The translations under genes and the position numbers were made by a program. From positions 1 to 64,000 of the forward strand of contig NZ_PZZZ01000006.1 in NCBI RefSeq assembly GCF_003046475.1: a stretch of 64,000 bases of DNA, written 5' to 3'. The stretch is from Mycoplana dimorpha. Its GTDB lineage: Bacteria > Pseudomonadota > Alphaproteobacteria > Rhizobiales > Rhizobiaceae. The notes beneath the pieces were generated by a model. That model saw only the letters and a program-made list of their open reading frames with translations, was not told the origin of the DNA and did no database searches. Of this stretch, positions 4,825-20,889 are shown piece after piece (the stretch's first letter is position 1; each line of letters starts with the position of its first letter).

Positions 4825-5399
4825 GCGAAGCTGTCCCAAGTTAAGAACTGAACCGGCATTTTTGCCTTGTTTAGGAGTTCCCGTTTTCTTATTGGTTATA
4901 GGAGCGCCCCATATATGTCTATACATTTTATGACGGACGCCGATAAAATCTCGGGATGGCGACTTGGCCGTGTCGTCGACGGCGGATCGCCAGGGAAAAT
5001 CGGATACGCCGCCCGCGGGGCGAGGCAGTACCCTGTCGGACGGCGTCATAGCCCCAACAACATCCATTAATTCCCCGGCGATAGATCGTGCCGGTCTCGG
5101 GCCAGCTTTCTGAAGAGTGGCTGGCGTCTCTCGCTTGCCTGGACGAGCAATGGTCCAGCCGCGCCGAAGGCGGTCAGGAATAAGCCGGCAGCCTCCGCCG
5201 ACTTGCAAGCCTCGTCCCGTCACGCACGCCCGACTAACGCTCGGAAAAGTCGAGCCTTTTTCTGCCCGCAGCGGTTCGACAGCCGGTCCGGAAGGGCGCA
5301 AGCGCCACCCCTGGAAAGTCGCTGGAAATCATAAACTATTGCAATTAAACAATAAATATGATTATATTGAACAGTTATTCAATATTGAGAGGTGGAGCA
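4825..5399. promoter_or_regulatory. divergent control region with a GntR/HutC-type palindrome at 4915-4926
   Basis: No credible gene is present in these 575 bases; the open frames are extensions of neighbours. The stretch near 4880-4930 is AT-rich and precedes the fused hydrolase-ATPase gene. It contains ATGTCTATACAT at 4915-4926, palindromic at 10 of 12 positions and close to the GTNTATAC core bound by HutC-type GntR regulators, many of which control amino-acid or opine uptake. No GntR gene lies in the window. On the plus side, TTGCAA at 5339-5344 and TATATT at 5363-5368 with an 18-base gap form a possible promoter for the Rieske gene. All regulatory calls are inference. Confidence 0.4.
5367..5382. 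promoter_or_regulatory. TetR-type operator copy 1 (TTGAA-N6-TTCAA)
   Basis: The palindrome reads TTGAACAGTTATTCAA, extended to 18 bases by A/T on either side. It overlaps the possible -10 element and sits 17 bases before the Rieske oxygenase ATG, where a repressor would block transcription. The same arms with the same six-base spacing recur at 8705-8720 and 16139-16154, in the other two promoter regions of the island. Confidence 0.6.
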
Positions 5400-6614
5400 A
5401 TGAACCCGCACATTCGCGACATAAGGGTTCCAACCGACTGGGATCGGCGCGGGCTGCCCGGCTGGGCCTACTACAGCCCGGCACTGCTGGAGCTGGAGAA
5501 GGACCACCTTTTCCGCAACCACTGGCAGATCATCGGCCACGTCTCCGACCTGCCCGAGCCCGGCGATTACCTCACCATGGACATCGTGGGCGAGCGCGCG
5601 CTGGTCGTGCGCGGCAAGGACGGCGTGGTGCGCGGCTTTCACAACATCTGCCGTCATCGCGGCAGCCGCGTCGTGGCCGACGAGCGCGGCAACTGCAAGA
5701 ACGCACTGGTGTGCCCTTTCCACGGGTGGGTCTACAATCTCGACGGCACGCTGCGGGGGGCAGCGCGTCCGCAATCCTTCCCCGAGCTCGACAAGAATGA
5801 GTTCGGCCTGCCTGCGCTCGACCTCGAGATCTGGATGGGGCTGATCTTCATCCGCTTCCGCAAAGGGCCGCAGGCGTCTGTCGCCTCGCTGCTGAAACCC
5901 TTCGAGGAGGAGCTGTCGCACTACCGCATCCCCGAGATGGTGCCGGCAAACGGCGTCTGGACCCAGACCAGCCCGGTCAACTGGAAGTCGGTACGCGACG
6001 TCGACAATGAAGGCTACCACGTCGCCATGGCCCACCCGGCGCTGCAGGACCTCTATGGCGCCAGCTACTACGACGAGCCCTTCGTCAACGGCGTGTCGCG
6101 GTCGTTCGCCACCTACAACCCGCATGCCGGCCGGCGCTGGAGCGTCGGGCGCTACATCAATGTCGCTCCCGAGCCCACCCACCTGCCCGAGCGGCTGAGG
6201 AAGGCCTGGATCTATTACGGCATGTTCCCCAATGCGGTGATCGCGGTGACGCCGGAGAGCGCGCAGTTCTACCAGGAGTTCCCGCTGTCGACCGGCGAGA
6301 CGCTGCTGCGCGGCGCGATCTACCGCTACCGCGACGAAAGCCGCGAAGCGGCCGCCGCACGCTACTTGTCGTCCCGCATCGACCGCGACACCCAGGCCGA
6401 GGACGTGCAGCTTTCCGTCTGGTCAAACGAATCCATGCTGTCGAAGGGCTTTGCCGGCTTCTACCTTTCCGATCTCGAATACGGCGTGCGCACCCACCAC
6501 GACCATATGCGCGCGCAGATCCCGGTGCTGAAGCTGGAAACCGCGCCAAACGAGGCGGAGATGGAGGGACTGAACGCAGAGATGCTTGGCGGGGTCACGC
6601 CGCCGGCGCCCTAG
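5400..6614 (+). CDS. Rieske non-heme iron oxygenase alpha subunit, quaternary-ammonium type
   Basis: This 404-residue protein is an oxygenase component that would insert oxygen into a C-H or N-CH3 group using electrons from a separate reductase. The Rieske centre is complete: Cys84/His86 (CRHRG) and Cys105/His108 (CPFHGW). The mononuclear iron site shows His207 and His212 in NEGYHVAMAHP. The residue three before His207, which bridges the two metal centres, is Glu204 rather than the Asp of ring-hydroxylating dioxygenases; Glu is found in carnitine, glycine-betaine and stachydrine oxygenases. The start at 5400 is chosen for AGAGGTGGAGCA just upstream rather than the earlier in-frame ATG at 5358. 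No reductase gene was seen in the window. Substrate is inferred to be an N-methylated compound. Confidence 0.87.
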   Translation: MNPHIRDIRVPTDWDRRGLPGWAYYSPALLELEKDHLFRNHWQIIGHVSDLPEPGDYLTMDIVGERALVVRGKDGVVRGFHNICRHRGSRVVADERGNCKNALVCPFHGWVYNLDGTLRGAARPQSFPELDKNEFGLPALDLEIWMGLIFIRFRKGPQASVASLLKPFEEELSHYRIPEMVPANGVWTQTSPVNWKSVRDVDNEGYHVAMAHPALQDLYGASYYDEPFVNGVSRSFATYNPHAGRRWSVGRYINVAPEPTHLPERLRKAWIYYGMFPNAVIAVTPESAQFYQEFPLSTGETLLRGAIYRYRDESREAAAARYLSSRIDRDTQAEDVQLSVWSNESMLSKGFAGFYLSDLEYGVRTHHDHMRAQIPVLKLETAPNEAEMEGLNAEMLGGVTPPAP

Positions 6615-6721
6615 CATGGCAGGGCTTCGCGACCGACGCGGTGCGCCGGCAGACCGGCCATCGGGTGCCTTTTCCAGGTGGCCTGCTTGTCCGGCGCGCC
6701 GGCTCTGCTACAGAAAGGGCC

Positions 6722-7195
6722 ATGTCCAGGACCACGCCCGCCACGCTCGCTCTGACCAAGGCCGGTATGCCCTTTACCGTGGCCACCTATGACTATGATG
6801 CCGGTGCCGAGCGGGTGGGACTGCAGGCGGCCGAGGCCATGGGCGTTCCGGCTTCCACCGTGCTGAAGACGCTGATGGTGGAAGTCGACGGCAAGCCTGC
6901 CTGCGTGGTGGTTCCCTCCGATCAGGAGGTCAACATGAAGAAGGTCGCCGCCGCCTTCGGCGGCAAGTCGGCCAACATGATGAAGCCGGCCGACGCCGAG
7001 CGCCTGACCGGCTACAAGGTCGGCGGCATCAGCCCCTTCGGCCGGCGCAAGCAGGTGCCGACGGCCGTTGAGGAAATGGCCACGTTGGAGGACGAGATTT
7101 TCCTCAATGGCGGCCAGAGAGGCTTGCAAATCCGCATGCGCCCGGACGATCTCGTCCAGGCGCTGGGCGCCAGGGTGGCAGATCTCGTCCGGTGA
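6722..7195 (+). CDS. ybaK: YbaK/EbsC-type aminoacyl-tRNA deacylase
   Basis: This 157-residue cytoplasmic protein matches the YbaK/EbsC family, which hydrolyses Cys-tRNA(Pro) and related mischarged tRNAs. Family marks include the TPAT opening, the TVLKTLMVEVDG strand, the central lysine in MKKVAAAFGGKSA, and the GYKVGGISPFG motif that surrounds the active pocket. The start at 6722 gives the usual family length; the reading frame could extend back to 6641 but that adds residues unlike the family. It follows the Rieske gene by 107 bases and ends six bases from the convergent aminotransferase gene. A housekeeping gene inside a catabolic island is odd and may be a passenger. Confidence 0.88.
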   Translation: MSRTTPATLALTKAGMPFTVATYDYDAGAERVGLQAAEAMGVPASTVLKTLMVEVDGKPACVVVPSDQEVNMKKVAAAFGGKSANMMKPADAERLTGYKVGGISPFGRRKQVPTAVEEMATLEDEIFLNGGQRGLQIRMRPDDLVQALGARVADLVR

Positions 7196-7201
7196 GCCCC
7201 C

Positions 7202-8623
7202 TCACCCCCGCCAGACACCCTCTTTCCTGAGATCGTCCATCGTGCGCGAGATGCCTTCGCGCAGGATGCCCACCATGTCGTCGATCTGCTCCCTGGTGAT
7301 GATGAGCGGCGGCGACATCACGCACATGTTGATCAGCGGCCGCACCAGAAGGCCGAGCTCCTGGCAGTGCGCGTCGATGCGCTTGCCGACATTCTTGTCC
7401 AGCTCCAGCGGGTTCCTGCTCTCGCGGTCGGCCACGCATTCCACGCAGGCCATGAGGCCGAGACCCCGCACCTCGCCCACCAGCGGCAGTTCCTCCAGCG
7501 TCTTCAGCTGCGCCTGGAAATAGGGCGCCACGGCCTGCGCATGGGCGAGCACGCCGCCTTCGAGCAGGTCGAGGTTCTTCAGGGCCACCGCGCAGCCGAC
7601 CGGATGGCTCGAATAGGTCAGGCCATGGGCATACATCGCCGTCGGGTGATTGGAGCGGCGCAGCTCTTCCAGCAGGCGCTGCGACACCACCATGCCGCCG
7701 AGCGGGAAATAGCCCGAGGTGACGCCCTTGGCGAAGGTGATGATGTCGGGCTCGATTCCGAACACGCTCTCTGAAGCGAAGACGTGACCGAGCCGGCCGA
7801 AGGCGGTGACGACTTCGTCGGAAATGAACAGGATGTCGTTGTCCCGGCAGATTTTCCGGATGCGCCGCAGATAGCCTTCCGGCGGCACGATGACCCCGCC
7901 CGAGGCCTGCACCGGCTCGCCCACGAAGGCGCCAATTTTTTCGGCGCCGATGCGCTTCACCGTCTCCTCGAACTCGGCCACGAGCTGGTCGGTGAAGGCC
8001 GCAAGGCTCATGCCCGCCGGGCGGCGGAACGGGTCGGGCGACGACAGTTTTATCACCAGTTCGTCGGCGCCATCCATCCAGTCGCGGTCACGCGGGCGGC
8101 CATTGAGCGAGGCCGACAGATAGGTCGAGCCGTGATAGGCGCCGCCGCGCGACAGGATCAGCTTCTTCTCCGGCCGCCCGCGCACATTGTTGTAGAACTG
8201 CATGAAGCGCAGCGCACTTTCCACCGCCGAAGATCCGCCGGTGGTGAAGAAGACGTGGTTAAGGTCACCCGGCGCGTGCCCCGCGATGCGCTCGGCAAGC
8301 ACGGCCGAAGCCTCGCTCATCGTGTACCACGGCGTGTTGTAGGAAAGCTGCATGGCCTGGTCGTACATCACCCGCGCCAGCTCTTCACGGCGGTGCCCGA
8401 CATTGACGCACCACATGCCCGCCGGCCCGTCGATCAAACGTCTTCCGTCGCCGTCGGTGATGTAGATGCCCTCGCCCTCGCCGATCAGGCTGCGGGCCTC
8501 CGCGCCGATCTCGCCGGCGGTCGGCCAGGGCTGCATCAAGTGGCGCCTGGCAAGCTCGACCGCCTCCTCATGACCCAACGTGCAGGCCTCGTTCGCCGCC
8601 GTCATGTTCTCTGCCGCCGCCAT
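7202..8623 (-). CDS. class III PLP aminotransferase (omega-amino acid/diamine type)
   Basis: This 473-residue cytoplasmic enzyme belongs to the subgroup-III transaminases that move an amino group from omega-amino acids or polyamines to pyruvate or 2-oxoglutarate. Seen are the GPAGMWCVNVGH start of the fold, FFTTGGSSAVESALR (phosphate-binding turn), the Asp in FISDEVVTAFGR that holds the pyridine nitrogen, and the PLP lysine Lys299 in TFAKGVTSGYFPLG. Length is usual. It is transcribed away from the PotB/C/A-type operon, with the shared palindrome at 8705-8720 between them. In context it would deaminate an amine imported by that transporter. Exact substrate unknown. Confidence 0.88.
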   Translation of the reverse strand: MAAAENMTAANEACTLGHEEAVELARRHLMQPWPTAGEIGAEARSLIGEGEGIYITDGDGRRLIDGPAGMWCVNVGHRREELARVMYDQAMQLSYNTPWYTMSEASAVLAERIAGHAPGDLNHVFFTTGGSSAVESALRFMQFYNNVRGRPEKKLILSRGGAYHGSTYLSASLNGRPRDRDWMDGADELVIKLSSPDPFRRPAGMSLAAFTDQLVAEFEETVKRIGAEKIGAFVGEPVQASGGVIVPPEGYLRRIRKICRDNDILFISDEVVTAFGRLGHVFASESVFGIEPDIITFAKGVTSGYFPLGGMVVSQRLLEELRRSNHPTAMYAHGLTYSSHPVGCAVALKNLDLLEGGVLAHAQAVAPYFQAQLKTLEELPLVGEVRGLGLMACVECVADRESRNPLELDKNVGKRIDAHCQELGLLVRPLINMCVMSPPLIITREQIDDMVGILREGISRTMDDLRKEGVWRG

Positions 8624-8704
8624 ATGCTTGCCCTTTCATGAGCCTCGTTTCGCGTTTCCGGACCGCTCCGCGCCTTGGGACCAGGCGATTCAAATGATTT
8701 CATA

Positions 8705-8720
8705 TTGAATGTCCGTTCAA
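8705..8720. promoter_or_regulatory. TetR-type operator copy 2 (TTGAA-N6-TTCAA)
   Basis: TTGAATGTCCGTTCAA, with A and T flanks extending the palindrome to 18 bases, lies in the 252-base divergent region between the aminotransferase and the ABC transporter operon. It is 82 bases from the aminotransferase ATG and about 155 from the permease ATG, so one bound repressor could control both directions. Confidence 0.6.
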
Positions 8721-8875
8721 TCAATATCTCAGAAATACCGCTTGATTTCAATCCACGAATAGGCTCATCTTGAGAGAAAGAAAGCACGGCGCGCGCCGGG
8801 AACCGCGACGCCGGCAACGAATGGGTGGAACATGCCGGAAGATTGCGCAGCCGCACTTTTGCGAGAGCCGCACCA

Positions 8876-9793
8876 ATGACGGCGGCCGCGGAAGGGTCAC
8901 CGCCGCTCGCTTTGGGCAGGCGCCGAAGAAGCTCCCTTCTGCAAACCGAACCCGCGCAGGGCTTTGCCCTGATCAGCCCGACCTTTCTTTACGCGCTGGT
9001 GCTTCTGGTGGTGCCGATCCTGGTGGTGGTCGCGCACAGCTTCTGGACCCAGAACTATCTCACCATCGACCGCAGCTTCACGCTGGAAAACTACCGCGTC
9101 GCGCTGACCGAGCCGATCTATCGCGACCTGCTCATGCGCTCGCTGTGGATCTCGCTTTTGGTCAGCTTCTTCACGGTCGTGATGGCCTATCCGATCGCCT
9201 ATTTCATTTCGTTCCACGGCGGCCAGCACAAGGGGCTGTGGCTGTTCCTCATCACCATCCCTTTCTGGACCAGCTATCTGCTGCGCGTCATGTCGTGGAG
9301 GGTCATCCTCGGCTACAACGGCGTGCTGAATTCCGGCCTGATGGGCCTCGGCTTCATCAGCGAGCCTTCCACCGCCCTGCTCTACAACACCAGCGCCGTG
9401 GTCATCACGCTCACCCATGCCTGGGCGGCCTTCGCCATCCTGCCCATCTTCGTTTCGCTGGAAAAGGTCGACCGCTCGCTGATCGAGGCCGCGACCGATC
9501 TCGGCGACGGGCCGCTGCGCCGCTTCCTGCGCATCACGCTGCCGCTGTCATCGCCAGGCGTCATCGCAGCACTGCTCATCGTCATGATCCCGACGGTCGG
9601 CGACTTCGTCACGCCGCGCCTCGTTGGCGGCAAGGATGGCGTCATGATCGCCAACGCCATCCAGGCGCAGTTCAGCAAGGCCGCCAACTGGCCGCTGGGC
9701 GCGGCGCTGTCCGTCACCACCATGGTGATCGTCACCGCCATGGCGGCAGCCGCTGTCCTCATTATCCGAAGTGCTGCGAGGCTGGCACGATGA
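8876..9793 (+). CDS. PotB-like ABC transporter permease
   Basis: This 305-residue inner-membrane permease is of the spermidine/putrescine (PotB/PotH) class, with six predicted membrane segments and the EAA loop SLIEAATDLGDGPLRRFLRI that contacts the ATPase. The start is taken as the ATG at 8876; an in-frame GTG at 8825 would add 17 residues without family likeness. Its stop overlaps the ATG of the next permease (ATGA). The transporter class imports polyamines, but close relatives carry quaternary amines, so the ligand here should be an organic cation. The periplasmic binding protein sits apart at 13426-14508. Confidence 0.88.
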   Translation: MTAAAEGSPPLALGRRRRSSLLQTEPAQGFALISPTFLYALVLLVVPILVVVAHSFWTQNYLTIDRSFTLENYRVALTEPIYRDLLMRSLWISLLVSFFTVVMAYPIAYFISFHGGQHKGLWLFLITIPFWTSYLLRVMSWRVILGYNGVLNSGLMGLGFISEPSTALLYNTSAVVITLTHAWAAFAILPIFVSLEKVDRSLIEAATDLGDGPLRRFLRITLPLSSPGVIAALLIVMIPTVGDFVTPRLVGGKDGVMIANAIQAQFSKAANWPLGAALSVTTMVIVTAMAAAAVLIIRSAARLAR

Positions 9794-10611
9794 CGGCCCT
9801 GCGCAAGATTTTCGCCAGGTGGCTGCCGGTCTATGCGGGGCTCTACATCGTCTTTCTCTACCTGCCGGTGGTCTTCCTGCCGATCTTCTCGCTCAACACG
9901 GCGGTCACTCCCAAATTCCCGCTCGAGGGGCTGACGCTCAAATGGTACGAGGAGCTACCCAACACGCCGGCGCTGCTCGACGCGGCCTGGAACAGCCTTG
10001 TCGTCGGCATCGCCGCCGCCATCCTCTCCACCGTGCTCGGCATCTGCGCCGCGCGCGCCATCACCCGCTATCGCTTTCCCGGGCGCCGCACCATCAACGG
10101 GCTGATCATGGCCCCGCTGGTGCTGCCGGAGATCATCGTGGCCGTGTCCATGCTGCTGGTCATCTTGCAGATGGGGCTGGACCTGTCGCTGATGACCGTC
10201 GTGCTCGGCCACGTGCTGGTCTGCATCCCCTATTCGCTGACCGTGCTGACCTCGGGGTTCGAAGGCTTCGACCGCAGCCTGGAGGAGGCTTCCGCCGACC
10301 TCGGCGAGACCGCCTTCGGCACCTTCCGGCGGGTGACGCTGCCGATGGTGACGCCGGCCATCATCTCCAGCCTGCTCGTCTCCTTCACCATCTCGCTCGA
10401 CGAGTTCATCATGGCCTTCTTCCTGACCGGCACCAAGCCGACGCTGCCGATCTACATCTGGGGCCAGCTGCGCTTCGCCGCCAAGCTGCCGGGCGTGCTG
10501 GCGCTGGGCACGCTTTTGCTGGTCGGCTCGTTCCTGCTGCTCACCATCGCCGAACTCTTGCGCCGCCGCGCCGCGCGCCGAAGCCAGAACACCGGAGGCG
10601 CCTTTGCCTGA
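9790..10611 (+). CDS. PotC-like ABC transporter permease
   Basis: This 273-residue partner permease of the PotC/PotI class has six membrane segments and the EAA motif [20 protein letters not shown]. The ATG overlaps the stop of the previous gene in the ATGA arrangement, which signals translational coupling. The 3' end overlaps the earliest possible start of the ATPase by eight bases. It pairs with the preceding permease to form the channel. Confidence 0.88.
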
Positions 10612-10618
10612 GACCCCG

Positions 10619-11725
10619 ATGCCTGAACACACGCCCGCCGATCATCGCACCATGATCGAGATTTCCCGCGTCACGCGCAGCTACGGCGCCTTCAAGGCGC
10701 TGGACGACGCCTCGCTGACCATCCGCGAGGGCGAGTTCTTCTCGCTGCTCGGGCCGTCGGGCTGCGGCAAGACCACGCTTCTCAGGATGATCGCCGGCTT
10801 CGACAATCCGACCAGCGGCACCATCGCCGTCGACGGCCAGCCGATGGACGGCATTCCGGCCAACCGGCGCCCCACCAACATGGTGTTCCAGAGCTACGCC
10901 ATCTTCCCGCATCTCAATGTCGAGCAGAACGTCGCCTACGGGCTGAAGCGCCTAAGGCTCGGCGCGGCGGAAGAAAAGCGCCGCGTCGAGGAGGCACTGG
11001 CGCAGGTCTCGCTCACGGGGCTGGGAAAACGCGGCGCCACCGAGCTTTCCGGCGGCCAGCGTCAGCGCGTCGCGCTTGCCCGCGCGCTGGTCATGCGGCC
11101 AAAGGTGCTGCTGCTCGACGAGCCGCTGTCGGCGCTGGACAAGAAGCTGCGTGAGCAGATGCAGGTGGAGTTGCGCCGGCTGCAGCAGGCGGTGGGCATC
11201 ACCTTCATCCTGGTCACCCACGACCAGTACGAGGCGCTGGCCATGTCTGACCGCATCGCGGTGATGTTCGGCGGCCGCATCGCGCAGGTCGCCTCGCCCA
11301 AGGAGATCTACCAGCGCCCGGTCAACCGGCAGGTGGCCGACTTCCTCGGCGGCATGAATTTCGTCAAGGCCGAGATCGTGGAGGAGAACGGCGCCTCGCT
11401 GGTGGTCGACACGCTGGGCTTCGGCCGCGTCAGGACCGACAAGCCGGCCGCCTTCGTGCGCAACGGCAAGGCGGCCACGCTCGGCATCCGGCCCGAACGG
11501 CTGCGCGTCTTGTGGGACGACGCAAAAGCGAAATTCGAGGTGGCCGGCCGCGTCGTCGAGCGCCACTATTTCGGCGAGATCACCCATCTGATCGTGGAAA
11601 TTCCGGGCCTGGAAAATCCGCTTTCCGTCACCGAGACCAACGACTTCGGCGCCGACGACATTCCGGTCGGCGCACCCATCCGCCTCGCCTACGACCCCGA
11701 CGCTCTGGTGGCGATGGCCGACTGA
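10619..11725 (+). CDS. PotA-like ABC transporter ATP-binding protein
   Basis: This ATPase of 368 residues powers the PotB/PotC-like permeases. Seen are Walker [10 protein letters not shown], the Q-loop [12 protein letters not shown], the LSGGQRQR signature, Walker [15 protein letters not shown], the switch His in LVTHDQYEA, and a C-terminal TOBE domain (about residues 280-365) typical of PotA/UgpC/MalK-class proteins. The start at 10619 is one of three in-frame choices: TTG at 10604, ATG 10619, and a later ATG nearer the conserved MIEISRV. It ends 29 bases before the VOC gene. Confidence 0.88.
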
Positions 11726-11754
11726 ATTCACCTCTCCGCAATGGGAGCCCTCGC

Positions 11755-12120
11755 ATGACGATCACCGCGCTCGACCATGTCCAACTCGCCATGCCGGCCG
11801 GCCGCGAGGAAGAGGCGCGGAGCTTCTATCAGGACCTGCTCGGCATTCCCGAAGTGCCGAAGCCGGCAGCGCTCGCCGCGCGCGGCGGCTGCTGGTTCGA
11901 GATCGGTTCGGTGAAGATACATCTCGGCGTCGAGACGGATTTCGTGCCGGCTCGCAAGGCCCATCCCGCCTTGGTCACTGACGACCTTGCCGGCTTGGCG
12001 AAAAAGCTTGAGGCTGCGGGCGTTGCGGTTACTCCGGACCACGCACTTGCTGACACCGAACGCTGCTTTGTCAGAGATCCCTTCGGCAACCGCATAGAGC
12101 TGGTCCAGGGAAAGCCGTAG
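11755..12120 (+). CDS. VOC-family (glyoxalase/dioxygenase fold) protein
   Basis: This small protein of 121 residues has one vicinal-oxygen-chelate domain: the ALDHVQLAMPAG opening with the first metal-ligand His, FYQDLLGIPEVPKP, an HLGVE segment with another possible ligand, and the closing DPFGNRIELVQ with the terminal Glu. Such proteins bind metal and may be lyases, isomerases or resistance proteins; the family does not tell the reaction. It is last in the transporter operon and ends 16 bases from the convergent amine oxidase gene. A role in processing an aldehyde or adduct from the pathway is possible but unproven. Confidence 0.78.
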   Translation: MTITALDHVQLAMPAGREEEARSFYQDLLGIPEVPKPAALAARGGCWFEIGSVKIHLGVETDFVPARKAHPALVTDDLAGLAKKLEAAGVAVTPDHALADTERCFVRDPFGNRIELVQGKP

Positions 12121-12136
12121 TCATCGGCTGGCCGGG

Positions 12137-13429
12137 CTATCCTCGCGAAGCTTCCAGTTCAGACAGCACCTTCCGAGCCGCAATCCGCCCCGCCACGATC
12201 GCGCCTTCGATATAGCCGGGGAAGGACGGCGACAGTTCCGACGACGCGAAATGCACCGGCGGGGCGCCAGCCAGAAGCACGCCTTCCGCATCCGTGGCAT
12301 TCATATCGAGGATGAGATCGCTATAGGCGCCGCCGCTCCAGGAATCGTCAATCCAGCTGCGATAGCTGAAGTCGAGCACGGCCTCGGCCTCGGGCCCCAG
12401 CGCCGTCACCAGCCGCGACATCACTTCGCCACGCAGGGCGGCTTCGTCCAGCCCGCCCCAGCGCAGCGCCAGCGGGCCGCCGATGAAGACGACCACGGCC
12501 GGATGGCTTTCGTCCTTGCCGGCATCGCAGGCAAACAGCCCCGGCAGGTTGCGCCACATGACCATGCCGCTCAGGCCCCGTTCGCGCCAGAGGGCGCGGG
12601 CATAGCGCACCAGAACCTTGATCACCGCGCCGCTGTGCCAGACGCCGAGCGCCCGCGCCAGGCGGGCGGGAAGCGGCGGCGAGAAGGCGAGCTTCGACGC
12701 CATCATCGGCGGCACCGCGACCAGCACCGAAAGCGCTTCGAACACGCGATCGCCCGCCAGCACCTTCACGCCGTCCGGCGCATGCTCGATCCTGGTTACC
12801 GGCCTGCCGAGCTGCAGCCGGTCGCCGAGGTCGCCCGCCAGGTCGTCGGCCAGCGACTGCATGGTCTCGGCCAGGAAATACTGCAGCTCCGACGCTTCGT
12901 TGGTGATGCGGCGGTCGTTGTCGATCAGGTGCCAGAGGGGGATATTCTCCAGCGCCTGGCACCACAGGCCCTCGATCATCGAGCGAAAACCCGCCTTGGT
13001 GTCCGCCGCATCCTGCTGCCGCTCCAGCCATTCGGCCACGGTCATGCCGGCCATTGCCGGATCGTCCGGCTCGATGCCGTTCATGCGCTCGCGGATTTCC
13101 ATGACACCGACATAGTTCCGCTCGGCGTCGCCGGCCGGCATCGGCGGCTGGGCGATGAATTCGCCGTCGACATGGGTTTCCACCAGCGTCTTGCCGCGCG
13201 CCTTCACCAGCGCGATCAGTTCCGGCATATCCTCGCACAGGAACTGCCCGCCCGTGTCGACCAGTTCGCCGAGGCCGTTGCGCCGCGCCTCGACGCGCCC
13301 GCCCACCCGGTCGCGCGCCTCCAGCACCAAGAAGTCCACCCCGGCGCGGCGCAGTTCCTGCGCCGCCGAAAGGCCGGTGAACCCGGCCCCGACGATGACA
13401 ACCTCCGTCTTTGCCTGCCTGTGGCTCAA
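12137..13429 (-). CDS. flavin-dependent amine oxidase (monoamine oxidase family)
   Basis: This 430-residue FAD enzyme of the monoamine/polyamine oxidase fold oxidises C-N bonds to imines. It opens with the dinucleotide-binding motif VVIVGAGFTGLSAAQELRRAG, then a GGR motif (DRVGGRVEAR), and ends with the family C-terminal FAD motif SFPGYIEGAIVAGRIAA. The start is a TTG at 13429 overlapping the TGA of the binding-protein gene (TTGA); the open frame extends to 13606 but that part lies in another gene and lacks family likeness. Last in a four-gene operon (methyltransferase, TetR, binding protein, oxidase). The substrate is expected to be the imported amine or a demethylated product. Confidence 0.85.
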   Translation of the reverse strand: MSHRQAKTEVVIVGAGFTGLSAAQELRRAGVDFLVLEARDRVGGRVEARRNGLGELVDTGGQFLCEDMPELIALVKARGKTLVETHVDGEFIAQPPMPAGDAERNYVGVMEIRERMNGIEPDDPAMAGMTVAEWLERQQDAADTKAGFRSMIEGLWCQALENIPLWHLIDNDRRITNEASELQYFLAETMQSLADDLAGDLGDRLQLGRPVTRIEHAPDGVKVLAGDRVFEALSVLVAVPPMMASKLAFSPPLPARLARALGVWHSGAVIKVLVRYARALWRERGLSGMVMWRNLPGLFACDAGKDESHPAVVVFIGGPLALRWGGLDEAALRGEVMSRLVTALGPEAEAVLDFSYRSWIDDSWSGGAYSDLILDMNATDAEGVLLAGAPPVHFASSELSPSFPGYIEGAIVAGRIAARKVLSELEASRG

Positions 13430-14508: not shown

Positions 14509-14534
14509 CGTTCCACCCTCTGGTTGTTATCGTG

Positions 14535-15227
14535 TCATGAGATCTTTCGCCGGCCTGCGGCTTCCCGCAAAAAATGCTTTGGAAAGACCGAGGCCAGATA
14601 GTCCGCTGCGGCCTGATGGGCCGTTTCGCGCGTTACGCTCTCGGCGTTGATCATCAGGCGCAGCCACAGCCCTTCGAGCATGGCGCTCAGGCCCAGCGCC
14701 GTCGCCTCCGCGTCGTAGTCGTAGCCGGCATCCTGCTTGAGCTGCGTGCACAGCTCGACGATGGTCTGCTGGTAGGCCTCGTCGCGCGCGCCGCTCAGCA
14801 TCTGGTAGGTCGGGCGCGACTTGGCCTCCCCCCAGAAGGCGCACCAGGCCGCCAGCTTGCGCTTGTTGCAGATCGAGCGGTCGAAATCGGCCGCCACCAG
14901 CGCCTGCAGCCGCCGCGCCGGATCATCGCCGGCCTTTTGCAGGGCGCTGCGCCAATGGGCGGAATACTCGTCGTACATGTACTGCAAGGTGGCGACGAGC
15001 AGCTTTTCCTTGCTTTCGAAATGGAAGTTCACGATGCCGCGTGATAGGCCGGCGCCATCGGCCACATCGGCCATGGTGGTGTCGGAATAGCCGCGCTTGG
15101 CCAGCGAATCGATCGTTGCCTCGATGAGCTGCAGCTGCCGCGTCTCCTTGGAGGCCTTGCGGCTGCGCCGTTCCGCGTCGCCCTTGCCGGCGGCCTTCTC
15201 GGCCTCCTTCTGTGTCGTCGATCCCAT
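14535..15227 (-). CDS. TetR-family repressor, BetI-like; likely controller of the island
   Basis: A TetR-type regulator of about 230 residues. The N-terminal helix-turn-helix (GYSDTTMADVADGAGLSRG, followed by IVNFHFESKEKLL) is followed by a BetI-like ligand domain with a Cys/Trp-rich helix (AAWCAFWGEAKSRP), a pattern seen in regulators sensing choline-like cations. The start is uncertain: in-frame ATGs exist at 15278, 15248, 15239 and 15227; the last has GGCGGCAAGG upstream and leaves a short basic tail before the DNA-binding domain. It sits between methyltransferase and binding-protein genes. Three copies of TTGAA-N6-TTCAA in the promoters of this island are its best candidate operators. Confidence 0.83.
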   Translation of the reverse strand: MGSTTQKEAEKAAGKGDAERRSRKASKETRQLQLIEATIDSLAKRGYSDTTMADVADGAGLSRGIVNFHFESKEKLLVATLQYMYDEYSAHWRSALQKAGDDPARRLQALVAADFDRSICNKRKLAAWCAFWGEAKSRPTYQMLSGARDEAYQQTIVELCTQLKQDAGYDYDAEATALGLSAMLEGLWLRLMINAESVTRETAHQAAADYLASVFPKHFLREAAGRRKIS

Positions 15228-15253
15228 CCTTGCCGCCATACTGCACATCGCCG

Positions 15254-16054
15254 CTAACGACCCTCGTCCGGCTTCCATCCGCGCAGATGAGTGGGACGGT
15301 GCTCCCCACTGTCAAGCACCTTTTGCATCGCCTCCCAGGTTGCGATGTTCTTGTCGACATAGGCAGCGCCCACGACCGCTGCGACCGGCGCATAGAGCGG
15401 CCCTTTCAGCCTTTCGAGCTCGCCGCGCGCAACCTCGCGATACCAAGGGTTGCGGTCGGTGACGGTGATGTCGCGGAAGCCCACTGCCTCCATCGCCTTG
15501 CGGTAGTGGGTGGGCGAGCGCATGGCAAAGCTCAGCCCTTCCGCCGCCACATAGGATTTCATCTCGGGCGACGGCTCGCCGTCATGGCCGATCATCCAGT
15601 TCGAGGCGGCAAAAACCCCGCCTGGCTTCAGCACGCGAAAGATCTCGGCAAACAGCGCCTGCTTGTCCGGCACGTGGAGCAACGCATCCTTGGAGAACAC
15701 AACGTCGAAGACAGCATCGCCGAAGGGCAATGGGCCGGGCGGCGCCTGAACGAAGTCGACGCGATCCGAAAGGCCGCGCTTTTCCGCACGCCCGCGCGCG
15801 ACCTCTAGCACCGGGGCCTCGACGTCGAAGCCGGTCACATGCGCCGCATCGTGCTTTTCGACGAGATGCAGCGCGATGCCGCCTGCCCCGCAGCCGATGT
15901 CGAGGATTTGCTTGCCGGCCAGTGACAGGCCATCGACCACCCTATCGACCTCTTCCGGCCCGCCGGGCGACAGATAGCCCTCACCCCACAGCGCCTCCAG
16001 GAAGCGGATGGCGGTGCCGTCATATTCCGGCTCTGCCTCGGCAGTTTCGATCAT
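15254..16054 (-). CDS. SAM-dependent class I methyltransferase (sarcosine/phosphoethanolamine N-methyltransferase-like)
   Basis: A 266-residue cytoplasmic enzyme with SAM motif [16 protein letters not shown], an acidic loop FDVEAPVLE, motif [17 protein letters not shown] and motif [13 protein letters not shown]. The order and spacing resemble small-molecule N-methyltransferases acting on glycine, sarcosine/dimethylglycine or phosphoethanolamine. The ATG at 16054 has GGAGGGGTGGAACA upstream; the frame extends 5' to 16150 but crosses the operator. First gene of the minus-strand operon and divergent from the FAD oxidoreductases. A methyltransferase in an apparently demethylating pathway is notable: it may transfer a methyl group off or recycle one. 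Family sure, substrate not. Confidence 0.82.
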
Positions 16055-16138
16055 TGTTCCACCCCTCCAAGCGGAAAAATCCAACGTCGAAATTCCGGAA
16101 AGCCTACTCCACTTACGACAAAACGCAACTCTAGTTTG

Positions 16139-16154
16139 TTGAACATTCATTCAA
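16139..16154. promoter_or_regulatory. TetR-type operator copy 3 (TTGAA-N6-TTCAA)
   Basis: TTGAACATTCATTCAA lies between the divergent methyltransferase (ATG 85 bases away) and the first FAD oxidoreductase (ATG 63 bases away). Its arms and spacing match copies 1 and 2. It would place the regulator's own operon under autocontrol. Confidence 0.6.
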
Positions 16155-16216
16155 AATGGCTGGACAGGGCCGGCGTTCCCGTGCCAGATTTGCAAAAAAC
16201 AAGAGCGGGAACCGGA

Positions 16217-17836
16217 ATGAAGACTTGGGACGCCATCGTCATCGGCGCCGGGCACAACGGGCTCGTCAACGCCTGTTACCTGCAGCGCGCCGGCCTCGAC
16301 GTGCTTGTGGTGGAGAAGAACGACTGGATCGGCGGCGCGGCCACCAGCCGCTCGCTCACGCCCGGCTTCCTCTACTCCAACTGCTCCTATGTCTGCTCGC
16401 TGTTCCGGCCCGAGATCATGCGCGACCTTGAGCTGCCGCGCTTCGGCCTGCAGGTCATCTCCTATGAGGGCGGCGCGGTGTTCACCCGCGATGGCGACTA
16501 TCTCGCCAACTACCGCGATCACCACGCCCACCGCCGCGAATTCGCGCGCTTCTCAGCCCGCGATGCCGAGGCCTACGGCCGCTACGCCCGCGACGTGACG
16601 CGCCAGTGCCGGTTCATCCAGCCGCTCCTGATGCGCACCGCGCCAGACCCGACCAGCTTTCGCCCACGCGACATCGGCGAGCTCATCTATCTCGGCAAGA
16701 AGTTCGCCGGACTGGGCGCGACTGAGATGGCCGACACGCTGCGCTTCTGGACCATGTCGATCTCCGACTTCCTCGACGAATATTTCGAGACCGACGTCAT
16801 TAAGGCCAATTTCGCGCTTTCGGGCATCATCGGCACCGCGCTCGGCCCCATGTCGCCTGGTACGGCCTATGTGCTGCTGCACCACTATATGGGCGAGGTC
16901 GACGGCTCGGTCGGCGCCTGGGGCTATGCGCGCGGCGGCATGGGGGCCGTCACCAAGGCCCTGGCCGACAGTTTTCGCGCCTCCGGCGGCACCATCCGCA
17001 CCGGCGCGGAAGTGGAGCAGGTGTTGGTGAAGAACGGCAAGGCACGCGGGCTGGTGCTGGCCGGCGGCGAGGAAGTCCACGGCAAGCTGGTGGTCTCCAA
17101 TGCCGACGTCAAGCGCACCTTCCTGAAGCTCGTCGAGGAGAAGGAACTGCCTGACGCCTTCCTGCGCCGGGTGAAGAACTTCAAGATGCGTGGCTCGTCC
17201 GGCAAGGTGAACATCGCGCTGGATTCGCTGCCCGAATTCCCCGCGCTGCCGAAGGATTCGCCCTGCTATCGCGGCGACATGCACTTCACCGATTCCGTCG
17301 AGCGCATGGAGCGCGGCTATGACGACTGGAAGGCCGGGCGCTGGTCGGCGGACCCCTTCCTCGACATGATGATGCCCACCATGCTCGACCCGACCATGGC
17401 CCCGCCCGGCAAGCATTTCATGAGCTGCTTCGTGCAATACTGCCCGCCCAAGGTGGAAGGCAGCGACTGGACCGACGCCGACCGCGACGCCTTCGCCGAA
17501 ACGGTCGTCTCGCAGATCGCCGACTATTCGCCCGGTTTTCGCGACCGCATCGTGCACATGGAGGTGCGCACGCCGCGCGAACTGGAGGCCGAAGTCGGCC
17601 TCACCGAAGGCAACATTTTCCAGGGCGAGTTGACCTTCGACCAGCTGCTGTTCAACCGCCCGGTGCCCGGCTACGCGCAATACCGCTCGCCCATCGACGG
17701 GCTCTATATCTGCGGCTCCTCCACCCACCCCGGCGGCGGCGTCATGGGTGCGCCCGGCCGCAACGCCGCACACGAAATCCTGCGCGACCTCTCGCGCCCC
17801 ACCAAGCATATGAGCCCGGCCCATGACGTCATTTGA
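16217..17836 (+). CDS. PYROXD2/phytoene-desaturase-like FAD oxidoreductase, copy 1
   Basis: This protein of 539 residues carries a strong FAD-binding opening (AIVIGAGHNGLVNACYLQRAG, of which GAGHNGL is the core), then EKNDWIGGAATSRSLTPGF, and a closing flavin motif GLYICGSSTHPGGGVMGAPG. This is the PYROXD2 branch of the phytoene-desaturase superfamily, mostly of unknown substrate. No signal or membrane segment is visible. The ATG at 16217 is preceded by GCGGGAACCGGA; the frame runs back to 16136 through the operator, which excludes that start. It overlaps the next, related gene by 14 bases. Context suggests oxidation of an N-methyl or amine substrate. Confidence 0.85.
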   Translation: MKTWDAIVIGAGHNGLVNACYLQRAGLDVLVVEKNDWIGGAATSRSLTPGFLYSNCSYVCSLFRPEIMRDLELPRFGLQVISYEGGAVFTRDGDYLANYRDHHAHRREFARFSARDAEAYGRYARDVTRQCRFIQPLLMRTAPDPTSFRPRDIGELIYLGKKFAGLGATEMADTLRFWTMSISDFLDEYFETDVIKANFALSGIIGTALGPMSPGTAYVLLHHYMGEVDGSVGAWGYARGGMGAVTKALADSFRASGGTIRTGAEVEQVLVKNGKARGLVLAGGEEVHGKLVVSNADVKRTFLKLVEEKELPDAFLRRVKNFKMRGSSGKVNIALDSLPEFPALPKDSPCYRGDMHFTDSVERMERGYDDWKAGRWSADPFLDMMMPTMLDPTMAPPGKHFMSCFVQYCPPKVEGSDWTDADRDAFAETVVSQIADYSPGFRDRIVHMEVRTPRELEAEVGLTEGNIFQGELTFDQLLFNRPVPGYAQYRSPIDGLYICGSSTHPGGGVMGAPGRNAAHEILRDLSRPTKHMSPAHDVI

Positions 17837-19385
17837 TGCCATCGTCATTGGCGGCGGCCACAACGGCCTCACCGCCGCAGCAACCCTGGCGAAGAGCGGC
17901 CGCAAGGTGCTGCTGCTGGAGGCCGCGGGCGAGCTCGGCGGTGCCGCCCGCACGGAGGAATTCGCGCCGGGTTTTCGTGTGTCCACCGCCCACTTGCTGA
18001 ACCGCCTGCATCCTGAGGTGGTCAGGACGCTCGAGCTTGAGAAGCACGGGCTTGTGCTGCCCAAAGGCCAGCTCGCTCCTAGCATTGCGCTCTCGCGTGA
18101 CGGCAAGCCGCTCACGCTCCATGGCGCCTATGGCGAAAGCCTCTCCGGCGCCTCGGCCCCGGAAGCCGCGGCGTGGCAGGAATTGCGGGCGCAGCTGCTC
18201 CGCTATGCCGGCATCCTGAAGCCGCTGCTGACCCGCCGGCCGCCCGACCTCGGCAACATGTCGCTGATGGAAATCTCGGCCTTTGCCATGACCGGCCTGT
18301 CGCTGCGCCGGCTCGGCAAGGAGGACATGCGCGATTTCCTGCGCATGCTGCTGATGAACGTCTCGGACGTCGCCGACGAACATCAGGAAGACGACCGGCT
18401 GAAAGGCCTGCTCGCCTTCGATGCCACGCTCGGCAGCCATCTCGGGCCGCGCTCGCCCACCTCGCTGCTCGGCCTCTACTATCGCCTTGCCGGCGAGATC
18501 GGCGCCCAGCCCGGCGCGCAGGCGCTGCCCGCCGGCGGCATGGGCGCGGTGGTCGCCGCCATCGAGCGCGCGGCAAAAGCTGCCGGCGTCAGCATCCGCA
18601 CCGAAGCGCCTGTGGCGAAAATACTGGTCGAAAAGGGTCGCAGCGTCGGCGTCGTGCTCGCCAGCGGCGAGGAAATCCGCGCCCGCACGGTGGTTTCGGG
18701 CATCAATCCGCGCAGCACTTTTCTGGATCTCGTCGGCACGCGCGAGATCGACACCGGCTTTGTCCGACGGATAAAGAACATCCGCATGAAAGGCGATGCG
18801 GCAAAGCTGCATCTCGCACTCGACCGGCCGCCGGAATTTTTGGGCGTCGATGCCGCCGGCCATCGCGGCCGCCTCGTCATTGCGCCCTCGGCCGACCATG
18901 TCGAACGCGCCTTCAACCCGGCCAAATATGGCGAGTTTTCGCCGGAGCCGGTGATGGAGATCACCCTGCCGAGCCTGGCGGACCCCACGCTCGCGCCGGA
19001 CGGCGCCTGCGTGGTCTCGGCAGTGGTGCAATATGCGCCCTATGCGCTGAAGGAAGGCTGGGAGGCCGGCAAGCCGAAGTTTTTGGCCGCCATCATGGCC
19101 CGGCTAGAGCTTTTCGCGCCGGGCGTCGGCAAGCTGGTGCGCCATGCCGAACTGCTTACGCCCGCCGACATCGAGGCGCGCTACCGCATGCCCGGCGGCC
19201 ACTGGCACCATGGCGAACTGCAGGCAGACCAGATGCTGATGTCGCGCCCCGCCTTGGGTGCTGCCGGCTACGACACGCCGGTGGATGGGCTGTTCCTGTG
19301 CGGCGCCGGTTCGCATCCGGGCGGCGGCATTTCCGGCGTGCCGGGCCTGAACGCGGCGCGGCGCATCATCGAAATGAGGGGCTGA
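17823..19385 (+). CDS. PYROXD2/phytoene-desaturase-like FAD oxidoreductase, copy 2
   Basis: This 520-residue paralogue has FDAIVIGGGHNGLTAAATLA at the start, LEAAGELGGAARTEEFAPGF, and GLFLCGAGSHPGGGISGVPG at the end, matching copy 1 motif for motif while differing in most other positions. The two are translationally coupled (14-base overlap) and may form a heteromer or act in sequence. Two bases separate its stop from the GcvT-like gene. In sarcosine and dimethylglycine dehydrogenases a FAD domain and a GcvT domain are joined in one chain; here they are separate neighbours. Confidence 0.85.
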   Translation: MTSFDAIVIGGGHNGLTAAATLAKSGRKVLLLEAAGELGGAARTEEFAPGFRVSTAHLLNRLHPEVVRTLELEKHGLVLPKGQLAPSIALSRDGKPLTLHGAYGESLSGASAPEAAAWQELRAQLLRYAGILKPLLTRRPPDLGNMSLMEISAFAMTGLSLRRLGKEDMRDFLRMLLMNVSDVADEHQEDDRLKGLLAFDATLGSHLGPRSPTSLLGLYYRLAGEIGAQPGAQALPAGGMGAVVAAIERAAKAAGVSIRTEAPVAKILVEKGRSVGVVLASGEEIRARTVVSGINPRSTFLDLVGTREIDTGFVRRIKNIRMKGDAAKLHLALDRPPEFLGVDAAGHRGRLVIAPSADHVERAFNPAKYGEFSPEPVMEITLPSLADPTLAPDGACVVSAVVQYAPYALKEGWEAGKPKFLAAIMARLELFAPGVGKLVRHAELLTPADIEARYRMPGGHWHHGELQADQMLMSRPALGAAGYDTPVDGLFLCGAGSHPGGGISGVPGLNAARRIIEMRG

Positions 19386-19387
19386 CC

Positions 19388-20641
19388 ATGTCGAAGACGG
19401 CCGCAAAACCCTTGGCTGAACAGGCGATCGTCCAGGCTGCCCACTCCCCCGCCCAGCTCCACTTCCGCACGCTGCGGGTCGACACGCCATTCCAGCCTCG
19501 CATCGACGCGCTGATGAAGACCAATGACTGGTACGACTGGGGCGGCTATCGCGCGCCCGCCTCGCTGTGGGACGAAGAGCTCGAATATTTTGCCATCCGC
19601 AGCCAGGCAGCGCTGTTCGACATCTCGCCGATGGTCAAATACCGCATCGAGGGGCCGGACGCAGAGAGCTTCCTCAACCGCCTCACCCTGCGCGACGTTG
19701 CGAAGCTGAAGCCCGGCCGCGTGCACTACACCGCCTGGTGCGACGATGCCGGCCATGTGCTCGACGACGGCACGCTGTTTCGCCTCACTGAAACCCGCTT
19801 CCGCCTCTGCTGCCAGGAGCGGCACCTGCCCTGGCTGCTCGACAGCGCCATTGGCTTCAACGTCACCGTGACGGAGGAAACCGAGGCGATCGCCGCACTT
19901 GCCCTGCAGGGCCCGACCTCTTTTGCGATCCTGCGCGAGGCGGGCTTTGCCGGCGTGGAGCGGCTAAAAATCTTCGACCTTGCAGAATTCCCACACGACG
20001 GCGGCAGCGTGGTCATCTCGCGCACCGGCTTCACCGGCGATCTCGGCTACGAGCTTTTTGTGCCCGCCGATCTTGCGCTGAGCCTTTGGGATCGCCTCTG
20101 GCAGGCGGGCGAGCTGCGCGGCATCCGCGCGATCGGCTACACCGCGCTCAACCGCGCACGGCTGGAGGCCGGGCTGATCGTCGCCAATGCCGATTTCGTC
20201 ACCGCCGAGCACGCCATCCGCGCCGACCGCCTGCGCATGCCCGACGAGATCGGGCTCGGCTTCATGGTCGACCTGGAAAAGGGCCATTTCAACGGCCGCC
20301 GCGTCATCGCGCAGGCGCGCTCCAAGGACACGCTGCAGCACGTTCTGGTGGGGCTGGAGATCGAGGGCAACATTCCCGCCGAGCACGCCATTGTCTATCA
20401 TCGGCAGAAGAAGGAGGTCGGGCTGGTCAGCGCCGCCATCTGGTCACCCATGGCCAAGCGAAACATCGCGCTGGCAAGCCTTCAGCGGCCTTATGGCGAC
20501 ACGGCCACGGACGACCTCTGGGTCGAGATCTACGCAATGCGCGAGCTGAAATACGAGCGGCTGATGAAGCGGGCAAAGGTGGTGGCGCGGCCCTTCATAA
20601 AGCTCGACCGCCGCACCGCGAGCCCGCCAGCGGAGTTCTGA
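19388..20641 (+). CDS. stand-alone GcvT-like (folate-dependent aminomethyltransferase/demethylase) protein
   Basis: This protein of 417 residues is built like GcvT/DmdA: an N-terminal folate-binding domain (ALFDISPMVKYRIEGPDAES, ALALQGPTSFAIL, RTGFTGDLGYELFVP) and a C-terminal barrel (LIGLE-like VLVGLEIEGNIP, VGLVSAAIWSP). The acidic Asp in GYELFVPAD-type segments and the conserved RTGFTG loop line the folate site in the family. It would receive a one-carbon unit from an N-methyl or aminomethyl group onto tetrahydrofolate. It follows the second FAD oxidoreductase by two bases and is followed within two bases by the small orphan gene. Not the housekeeping glycine-cleavage T protein, as no gcvH or gcvP lies nearby. 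Confidence 0.84.
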   Translation: MSKTAAKPLAEQAIVQAAHSPAQLHFRTLRVDTPFQPRIDALMKTNDWYDWGGYRAPASLWDEELEYFAIRSQAALFDISPMVKYRIEGPDAESFLNRLTLRDVAKLKPGRVHYTAWCDDAGHVLDDGTLFRLTETRFRLCCQERHLPWLLDSAIGFNVTVTEETEAIAALALQGPTSFAILREAGFAGVERLKIFDLAEFPHDGGSVVISRTGFTGDLGYELFVPADLALSLWDRLWQAGELRGIRAIGYTALNRARLEAGLIVANADFVTAEHAIRADRLRMPDEIGLGFMVDLEKGHFNGRRVIAQARSKDTLQHVLVGLEIEGNIPAEHAIVYHRQKKEVGLVSAAIWSPMAKRNIALASLQRPYGDTATDDLWVEIYAMRELKYERLMKRAKVVARPFIKLDRRTASPPAEF

Positions 20642-20643
20642 GC

Positions 20644-20889
20644 ATGAACGACGCCGAATTCGCCGAGCAGTGGCAGCTCGTCAACACGCCGCTCGGCGAA
20701 GAATGGTCCGGCCGTGCGCGCTATGCGGCGGCGATGTGGTTCCACAAGCGCGGCGACATGGATGCCGAGACGCTGGAGGTCTACCGCATCTGCTCGCGGC
20801 TGGACTCGGCCGACCCGCTGCCGATCATCCGCGACCGCGGCGTCGGCGAGCATTGGCTGAAGCGGATGGAGGAAGGGAAGCGGGGCTGA
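20644..20889 (+). CDS. 81-residue orphan protein, last gene of the FAD/GcvT operon
   Basis: A small, charged, soluble protein with Trp-rich helices (EQWQLVNTPLGEEWSG, YAAAMWFHKRGDM, EHWLKRMEEGKRG) and one Cys. I do not recognise the family. The start ATG is two bases after the GcvT-like stop, the composition fits its neighbours and there is no competing frame, so it is very likely real. Such tail genes in demethylase operons can be small subunits (compare the delta or gamma chains of heterotetrameric sarcosine oxidase) or assembly factors; that is only an analogy. Confidence 0.68.
   Translation: MNDAEFAEQWQLVNTPLGEEWSGRARYAAAMWFHKRGDMDAETLEVYRICSRLDSADPLPIIRDRGVGEHWLKRMEEGKRG

Follow-up and report, generated by a model that had tools for sequence, protein, structure and literature searches.

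A putative BetI-regulated gene island for the N-demethylation of an organic cation in Mycoplana dimorpha

Gene content and organization

The first 64,000 nucleotides of contig NZ_PZZZ01000006.1 (RefSeq assembly GCF_003046475.1) of Mycoplana dimorpha, a member of the Rhizobiaceae with a 4.59-Mb genome, were analyzed and are hereafter called the window. At positions 5400-20889 the window carries a gene island that may serve the catabolism of an N-methylated organic cation and contains 15 open reading frames (ORFs) arranged in five transcription units (Table 1). The first unit, on the forward strand, encodes a Rieske oxygenase followed by a YbaK-type protein; the second, on the reverse strand, consists of the gene of a class III aminotransferase alone; and the third, again forward, encodes PotB, PotC, PotA and a VOC/glyoxalase protein. 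The fourth unit is transcribed leftward and encodes an S-adenosylmethionine (SAM)-dependent methyltransferase, a TetR regulator, PotD and an amine oxidase. The fifth, on the forward strand, encodes two related flavoproteins, here named PYR_A and PYR_B, a GcvT-like protein and a protein of 81 residues, p81. An earlier sequence-only reading of the window had described the same five units, and every gene that it named is present and open at its coordinates. Its gene list was right, although its count of 14 genes was one too few, and the start that it gave, 5367, marks where an operator-like palindrome ahead of the Rieske ORF begins.

Table 1. Genes and operator-like sites of the island in the window.
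Feature	Position	Strand	Remarks
Operator-like palindrome TTGAACAGTTATTCAA	5367..5382		Before Rieske gene
Rieske oxygenase alpha subunit, 404 aa	5400..6614	+	PF00848, PF00355
YbaK-type protein	6722-7195	+	0/80 relatives
Class III aminotransferase, 473 aa	7202..8623	-	PF00202
Operator-like palindrome TTGAATGTCCGTTCAA	8705..8720		Divergent aminotransferase/PotB interval
PotB-like ABC permease	8876..9793	+	PF00528, start checked
PotC-like ABC permease	9790..10611	+	PF00528, start checked
PotA-like ABC ATPase with TOBE domain	10652..11725	+	PF00005, PF08402
VOC/glyoxalase protein	11755-12120	+	0/80 relatives
Flavin amine oxidase	12137..13429	-	PF01593; start uncertain, probably TTG, beside PotD stop
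PotD-like solute-binding protein, 360 aa	13426..14508	-	Solved relatives include PotD and PotF
BetI-family TetR regulator	14535..15278	-	PF13977, PF00440; start may be further in
SAM-dependent methyltransferase, 266 aa, accessory	15254..16054	-	PF13847, PF08241
Operator-like palindrome TTGAACATTCATTCAA	16139..16154		Divergent methyltransferase/PYR_A interval
PYR_A, FAD oxidoreductase, 539 aa	16217..17836	+	PF01593; CrtI/CrtO/amine-oxidase superfamily
PYR_B, paralogue of PYR_A, 520 aa	17823..19385	+	PF01593
Stand-alone GcvT-like aminomethyltransferase, 417 aa	19388..20641	+	PF01571 (194.4 bits), PF08669
p81, 81 aa, predicted all-helical	20644..20889	+	No Pfam or NCBIfam match

Conservation of the island in other genomes

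Scanning named genomes with a PYR_A profile yielded at least 583 encoding stretches; the 80 best were retained together with flanks of up to 10 kb, and 51 of these loci are full length. The proteins of the window were sought in the 80 loci by tblastn (E <= 1e-10), weak matches being counted. PYR_A, PYR_B and GcvT are consecutive in all 70 loci with at least 3.2 kb downstream (the other 10 were too short and were omitted), from Rhizobiaceae to Gammaproteobacteria, and this conserved gene order exceeds what chance would give. Within the 51 full-length loci, the aminotransferase was matched in 48, TetR in 47, PotA and PotC in 45 each, PotB and PotD in 44 each, p81 in 43, the SAM methyltransferase in 31, the Rieske oxygenase in 29 and the amine oxidase in 25; the Rieske count is a lower bound because the flank stops just inside the aminotransferase gene in many Mesorhizobium loci. 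Across all 80 loci, a match was found for the aminotransferase in 65 and for PotA in 58, and the amine oxidase was matched in 28 of the 47 nearer loci and in one of the 33 more distant ones. Thirteen of the 15 island ORFs recur together elsewhere. The closest relatives by PYR_A identity belong to Phyllobacterium and Mesorhizobium. Many of the more distant loci match the aminotransferase at only 26-35%, others at 47-58%, and the Rieske and PotD matches are frequently distant too; the one distant aminotransferase tested, that of locus L034, is a class III protein resembling glutamate-1-semialdehyde aminomutase.

At the level of whole genomes, a profile search detected PYR_A at E <= 1e-200 in 11 of 398 Pseudomonadota genomes, and 14 of the 199 genomes searched from the order contain the GcvT-like protein (E <= 1e-60), the genome of the window included in both counts. 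Orthologues of the Rieske oxygenase (E <= 1e-90) and of GcvT (E <= 1e-60) occur together in eight of the 199 genomes, one of which is the window's own, against 1.0 expected (p 1.4e-7), and in four genomes against 0.5 expected when the window's family is left out (p 7e-4). The orthologues are also found apart.

Two loci, L156:7719-14206 and L158:7927-14413, show a block of two Rieske genes, PotDABC and p81. On a Shinella plasmid (L036:11995-14746), a 40% relative of PYR_A adjoins a gcvT-type gene of its own; acyl-CoA, BKACE-type and Pot-type transporter genes are neighbours, and this region is perhaps a second PYR-GcvT pathway. A general link between PYR proteins and GcvT was rejected, as six loci with PYR relatives of 34-38% have no GcvT match within 7 kb on each side. 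The Rieske gene that lies on another contig in genome G105 was likewise rejected as an unlinked member of the regulon; the contig stops 112 bp past the Rieske match, which points to a probable contig break.

No tblastn match to the YbaK, VOC, BCCT and EamA genes was found in any of the 80 loci. YbaK, VOC and BCCT are thus neighbours and not island parts, EamA was also ruled out, and the BCCT transporter, at 21216-23441, does not hold as the partner of the island that it had been taken for. This transporter exceeds the cut-off of the choline BetT subfamily (756.1 vs 695). On the other side of the island, the ORF at 2860-5301 encodes a DUF2817 domain fused with an ABC ATPase domain of the amino-acid type; it was rejected as an island part, with matches at variable positions in six of the 80 relatives when its two halves are counted together.

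A palindrome shared by the promoter regions

A search for shared inverted repeats revealed a 16-bp palindrome, TTGAA-N6-TTCAA, that precedes all three promoter regions of the island. The window contains three exact copies against 0.01 expected in 100 shuffles, and five sites against 0.79 when up to one mismatch is allowed, the pattern having been picked after viewing the three promoter regions. The whole genome contains four exact copies, three of them in the island, and none of the reversed control pattern; the fourth, between an unrelated ORF and a gene that we take to be rpoC-like, was attributed to chance. In a survey of 96 relative loci (1.82 Mb), which are not independent and include some genomes twice, 70 of the 73 exact palindromes sit just upstream of one of the three units. 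With the window included, exact sites were found in 40 of 49 aminotransferase/PotB regions, 22 of 97 PYR_A regions and eight of 39 Rieske regions, and one-mismatch sites in an additional three, 27 and 12, respectively. Twenty mononucleotide shuffles per region gave, in the same order, 0, 0 and 1 exact sites and 7, 4 and 5 one-mismatch sites.

A later and fairer test used eight of nine additional Rieske loci (L161 was left out), none of which had contributed to the motif. Two of them, L155 and L159, have an exact palindrome upstream of the Rieske match, at a distance of no more than about 80 bp. The L155 genome (G038) has a 57% TetR match nearby and no GcvT orthologue at E <= 1e-60, and in the L159 genome (G037) the PYR genes are on a different contig from the Rieske gene, this assembly having 8% contamination and a PYR contig of just 13.6 kb. 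In nine genomes, including that of the window, 19 of 48 exact palindromes are within 25 kb of PYR_A; the single exact palindrome of genome G085 is outside its island.

The TetR regulator exceeds the cut-off of the BetI model NF001978 (133.9 vs 118 bits), in line with its description as BetI-like, and is below that of the choline-binding BetI model TIGR03384 (134 vs 201.3 bits). No BetI box with TTCAAT was matched among the open-access papers listed. Because the palindrome is common to the three promoter regions, the island can be read as one co-regulated set, as had been suggested, and taken alone we regard this co-regulation as highly probable. The units very probably form one regulon of the BetI-family repressor, to judge from the sequence data.

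The Rieske oxygenase and the flavoproteins

The nearest solved relatives of the Rieske oxygenase are the carnitine monooxygenase CntA and then stachydrine-demethylase-type (Stc2-type) entries, which agrees with the N-methyl amine context in which the enzyme had been placed. Entries 3vca and 4qup, listed as a ring-hydroxylating dioxygenase and a demethylase, are presumably Stc2. The glutamate of the E-x-Y-H motif bridges the metal centres in CntA, and a glutamate is in register at this position when the island enzyme is aligned to CntA and Stc2; with both Rieske oxygenase domains and this residue, it has the sequence features of a quaternary ammonium compound (QAC)-type oxygenase of the CntA/Stc2 kind. 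The motif reads DVDNEGYH in 37 of the 38 Rieske hits with at least 50% identity, the remaining one being cut by the locus end, and among 27 more distant hits six show ENYxECYHC and the others show another or no recognised pattern. The enzyme scores far under the cut-off of GbcA (NF058607, 128 vs 670 bits). A better GbcA-like gene (416 bits, below the cut-off) is located elsewhere in the genome and is directly followed by a reductase-like gene. Three distant candidates for a Rieske reductase are found elsewhere in the genome, and the island of Kiloniella (L104) has a gene with FAD, NAD and 2Fe-2S domains.

PYR_A and PYR_B are 37% identical and are the only two members of their family in the genome at E <= 1e-20. 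Both exceed the PF01593 gathering score of 19.8 (63.8 and 66.2 bits, respectively, and 191.5 bits for the island amine oxidase), and both are below the cut-offs of CrtO (NF045689, 311.6 and 219 vs 1000) and CrtI (TIGR02734, 137 and 111.3 vs 238.1). Family models therefore support the placement of the pair in the CrtI/CrtO/amine-oxidase superfamily, and the more specific label that it had received, PYROXD2-like, reflects a presumed kinship with human PYROXD2. The AlphaFold model of PYR_A has a predicted local distance difference test score (pLDDT) of 84, with some loops below 50. After three closer matches, which are considered with the pathway below, the fold resembles nicotine oxidoreductase, and putrescine and monoamine oxidases appear later, among phytoene desaturases; with desaturases and amine oxidases both near, the fold is undecided between the two chemistries. 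Amine oxidases use a lysine that is invariant in the corresponding region of PYR_A. In a profile alignment, PYR_B also shows a lysine opposite the invariant lysine of the island amine oxidase, the alignments comprising 20 of 94 listed hits for PYR_B and 13 of 31 for the amine oxidase, each with the window's own sequence. PYR_A and PYR_B may equally form one heteromeric enzyme.

The GcvT-like protein, p81 and the remaining components

Among solved structures, the GcvT-like protein best matches the C-terminal half of trimethylamine N-oxide (TMAO) demethylase, Tdm. Its folate region contains a pair of aspartates, D126-D127, of the kind that has a role in this region of GcvT; the pair is invariant in 21 aligned sequences (20 of 86 listed hits and the window's own). 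With a score over the PF01571 cut-off and the pair conserved, the protein has the GCV_T fold, and what had been described as a stand-alone GcvT-like protein indeed carries a folate-binding-type domain, closest to that of TMAO demethylase. It is below the cut-offs of the glycine-cleavage GcvT models (TIGR00528, 162.4 vs 235.85; NF001567, 207.7 vs 300), the soxA-type model TIGR01372 (144.6 vs 1164 bits, GcvT part only), dimethylsulfoniopropionate (DMSP) demethylase (122.2 vs 410 bits) and Tdm (254 vs 1100 bits).

The protein p81 is modeled as five helices with a pLDDT of 94.7. It had been called an orphan, and it has no match in Pfam or NCBIfam; in Rhodobacteraceae islands, however, its counterpart is the N-terminal part of a PF16867 DMSP_lyase-type cupin. 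No convincing fold assignment was obtained from the PDB, where the best match had an E value of 5.3. In Rhizobiaceae p81 is free-standing (20644-20889 in the window; the loci compared were L034:24680-24871 and L101:20659-21510), and in L096 p81 and the cupin are adjacent pieces.

The importer is of the polyamine type, as expected of a PotABCD-like system, with some acidic residues of PotD replaced in the binding protein. PotD binds polyamine through D168, E171 and D257 (1pot), and opposite these positions the island protein shows N, D and C and so departs from the acidic ligand set of PotD. Residues N173, D176, W264 and C266 (row numbering without the start Met) are invariant in 14 aligned PotD-like sequences, which are 12 of 55 listed hits, one sequence from L029 and the window's own. 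The aminotransferase exceeds the cut-off of NF005447, whose family name is uninformative, and its nearest solved structure is the unnamed 3i5t, followed by gamma-aminobutyric acid (GABA)/putrescine/polyamine-type transaminases. In two genomes of the window's family the SAM methyltransferase match falls into two pieces (L016:16062-16460 and L020:8452-8730), and in others it is missing, so the gene may be dispensable.

Genes beside the island in other lineages

In Kiloniella (L104), the core genes adjoin those of three extra enzymes, none of which exceeds an NCBIfam equivalog cut-off: an acyl-CoA dehydrogenase, an ADP-forming acyl-CoA ligase and a PuuC-like aldehyde dehydrogenase. Homologues of at least one of them, from the same cluster, were found in L025, L027, L073, L106, L109-L112, L114 and L116, which belong to other Rhizobiales, Gammaproteobacteria and, in one case, Burkholderiaceae; those of the PuuC-like enzyme occur in three loci besides L104. 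The aldehyde dehydrogenase and acyl-CoA genes suggest that deamination yields an aldehyde, which then continues as an acyl-CoA. L073 shows beside its island a carnitine 3-dehydrogenase (over the cut-off) and a beta-keto-acid-cleavage-type enzyme (under the cut-off), and L106 has same-cluster homologues of both. Furthermore, flavoproteins of the old yellow enzyme (OYE) type lie beside some relatives, glutamine-synthetase-like and DAO-type genes are in the vicinity of the L115 island, and 13 Mesorhizobium-type loci, with at least one genome counted twice, have an M19 dipeptidase cluster.

Proposed pathway and alternative readings

The island unites this gene set with its conservation in relatives and a palindrome common to its promoters; the binding of the repressor and the class of the substrate are predictions. 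We propose, with a probability of about 0.6 for the whole statement, that this is a BetI-regulated island for import, stepwise N-demethylation, one-carbon transfer and transamination, in which the enzyme reactions and their order are those we infer. An inducer, probably the substrate or its product, would lift the repression by the BetI-family regulator at the three palindromic operators, and PotABCD would bring in an N-methylated organic cation. The Rieske oxygenase would take the first N-methyl off the quaternary nitrogen as formaldehyde, and PYR_A and PYR_B would act as FAD amine oxidases on the N-methyls left at the tertiary and secondary stages. The GcvT-like protein would then transfer the methylene groups onto tetrahydrofolate, in the manner of the GcvT domain fused within dimethylglycine oxidase. 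The freed primary amine would be removed by the class III aminotransferase, assisted in the nearer relatives by the amine oxidase, and in some other lineages the PuuC-like dehydrogenase, acyl-CoA ligase and acyl-CoA dehydrogenase may send the chain into beta-oxidation. That there are three oxidative enzymes for the three methyls of a trimethylammonium group is suggestive and no more, and a demethylation series appears to be the most economical reading. Our boldest candidate for the substrate, put forward as a speculation with low confidence, is N-epsilon-trimethyllysine or a close omega-trimethylamino compound. The beta-oxidation and carnitine genes of the relatives fit omega-trimethylamino acids equally, and methylated diamines would likewise agree with the aminotransferase and PuuC-like genes.

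Several observations weigh against this proposal. The 15 island ORFs include no Rieske reductase gene, and the SAM methyltransferase is without a role in the scheme. The folds closest to PYR_A are those of a gamma-carotenoid desaturase, followed by CrtI and an unassigned archaeal oxidoreductase, and the lysine of PYR_B is conserved in less than 90% of the aligned sequences. Six of the 14 genomes with a Rieske orthologue have no GcvT orthologue, and six of 14 show the reverse; the Rieske genes, PotDABC and p81 of L156 and L158 stand without PYR or GcvT. Moreover, six of the eight Rieske loci of the later test have no exact palindrome, and 29 of the 48 exact palindromes in the nine genomes are away from PYR_A.

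The carotenoid-type folds would also suit an island that acts on a methyl group on sulfur or oxygen: GcvT would then work like DmdA, as a demethylase of sulfonium or O-methyl groups, and the flavoproteins would desaturate the carbon chain. DMSP demethylase and the vanillate/3-O-methylgallate demethylase are relatives of GcvT, and the link of p81 to the PF16867 cupin points the same way. However, the GcvT-like protein scores far below the DMSP demethylase cut-off and has TMAO demethylase as best solved match, the Rieske oxygenase is closest to CntA and Stc2, and the class III aminotransferase and PotA are matched in 65 and 58 of the 80 loci, so we consider this reading unlikely. We find it rather improbable, too, that the locus is an ordinary one for the degradation of glycine betaine, choline or carnitine under BetI. 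The repressor family, the adjoining BetT-type BCCT gene and the carnitine 3-dehydrogenase beside the L073 island, with its same-cluster homologue in L106, would be consistent with it, but the BCCT gene is absent from all 80 relative loci, and the island Rieske oxygenase falls far short of GbcA (128 vs 670 bits), a closer GbcA-like gene (416 bits) being located elsewhere. The degradation of a polyamine or diamine without N-methyl groups, in which the Rieske oxygenase and GcvT serve another purpose, would account for the PotABCD-like importer, the aminotransferase that after 3i5t is near polyamine/GABA types, the PuuC-like aldehyde dehydrogenase of L104 with its homologues in three other loci and the glutamine-synthetase-like and DAO-type genes near the L115 island. 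Nevertheless, the binding protein has N for D168 and C for D257 and so lacks two of the three PotD acids, and a folate-type GcvT would have no evident role absent one-carbon units, which makes this the least credible of the readings weighed here.

Significance and comparison with known systems

If the proposed N-demethylation is right, a route for N-methylated nitrogen is scattered over the Pseudomonadota in which flavoproteins of the carotenoid-desaturase branch replace those of the sarcosine-oxidase branch, and the repressor, its three operators and the binding protein offer handles for substrate screening. The island might further point to a role for human PYROXD2, which shows strong associations with metabolites in genetic studies. 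A PYROXD2 variant accounted for about 50% of the variance of N6-methyllysine and 48% of that of N6,N6-dimethyllysine in blood in one cohort (PMC8109053), and PYROXD2 was the strongest association in a second cohort (PMC9730628); the passages on these associations name no enzyme activity for the protein. Epsilon-alkyllysinase, a former name of a methyllysine oxidase activity, appears in a title cited in PMC4687429. If the trimethyllysine reading were true, PYR_A and PYR_B would be gene-level counterparts of the epsilon-alkyllysinase activity and the biochemical function of human PYROXD2 would be that of an N-methyl amine oxidase.

The sequence-only reading knew of no described pathway with this gene set, and none was found in the open-access literature; subscription papers mostly and preprints wholly lay outside this search, and a description may exist. 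Homarine catabolism was set aside as a described counterpart, the open-access match concerning glycine betaine in Vibrio.

Glycine betaine and carnitine are degraded by GbcAB or CntAB, then DgcAB and SoxBDAG. The island resembles this N-demethylation in the succession of a Rieske enzyme acting on a quaternary N-methyl and flavoenzymes with a GcvT-type folate domain; it differs in the DVDNEGYH Rieske subgroup, in flavoproteins of the CrtI/CrtO type instead of the DAO type, and in its stand-alone GcvT, aminotransferase and polyamine-type importer. It shares with stachydrine (proline betaine) catabolism a Rieske oxygenase akin to Stc2 and the OYE-type flavoproteins near some relatives, whereas the island ORFs of the window include no OYE-type flavoprotein and instead show the PYR pair and GcvT. 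With the TMAO demethylase Tdm, the GcvT-like protein shares the C-terminal half only. The CrtI/CrtO enzymes belong to the same flavoprotein superfamily as the PYR pair, which is below their cut-offs and lies in an amine-catabolism context. The individual parts belong to known kinds, and the combination, a CrtI/CrtO-branch pair in place of a sarcosine-oxidase-type enzyme together with a free GcvT, appears to be new.

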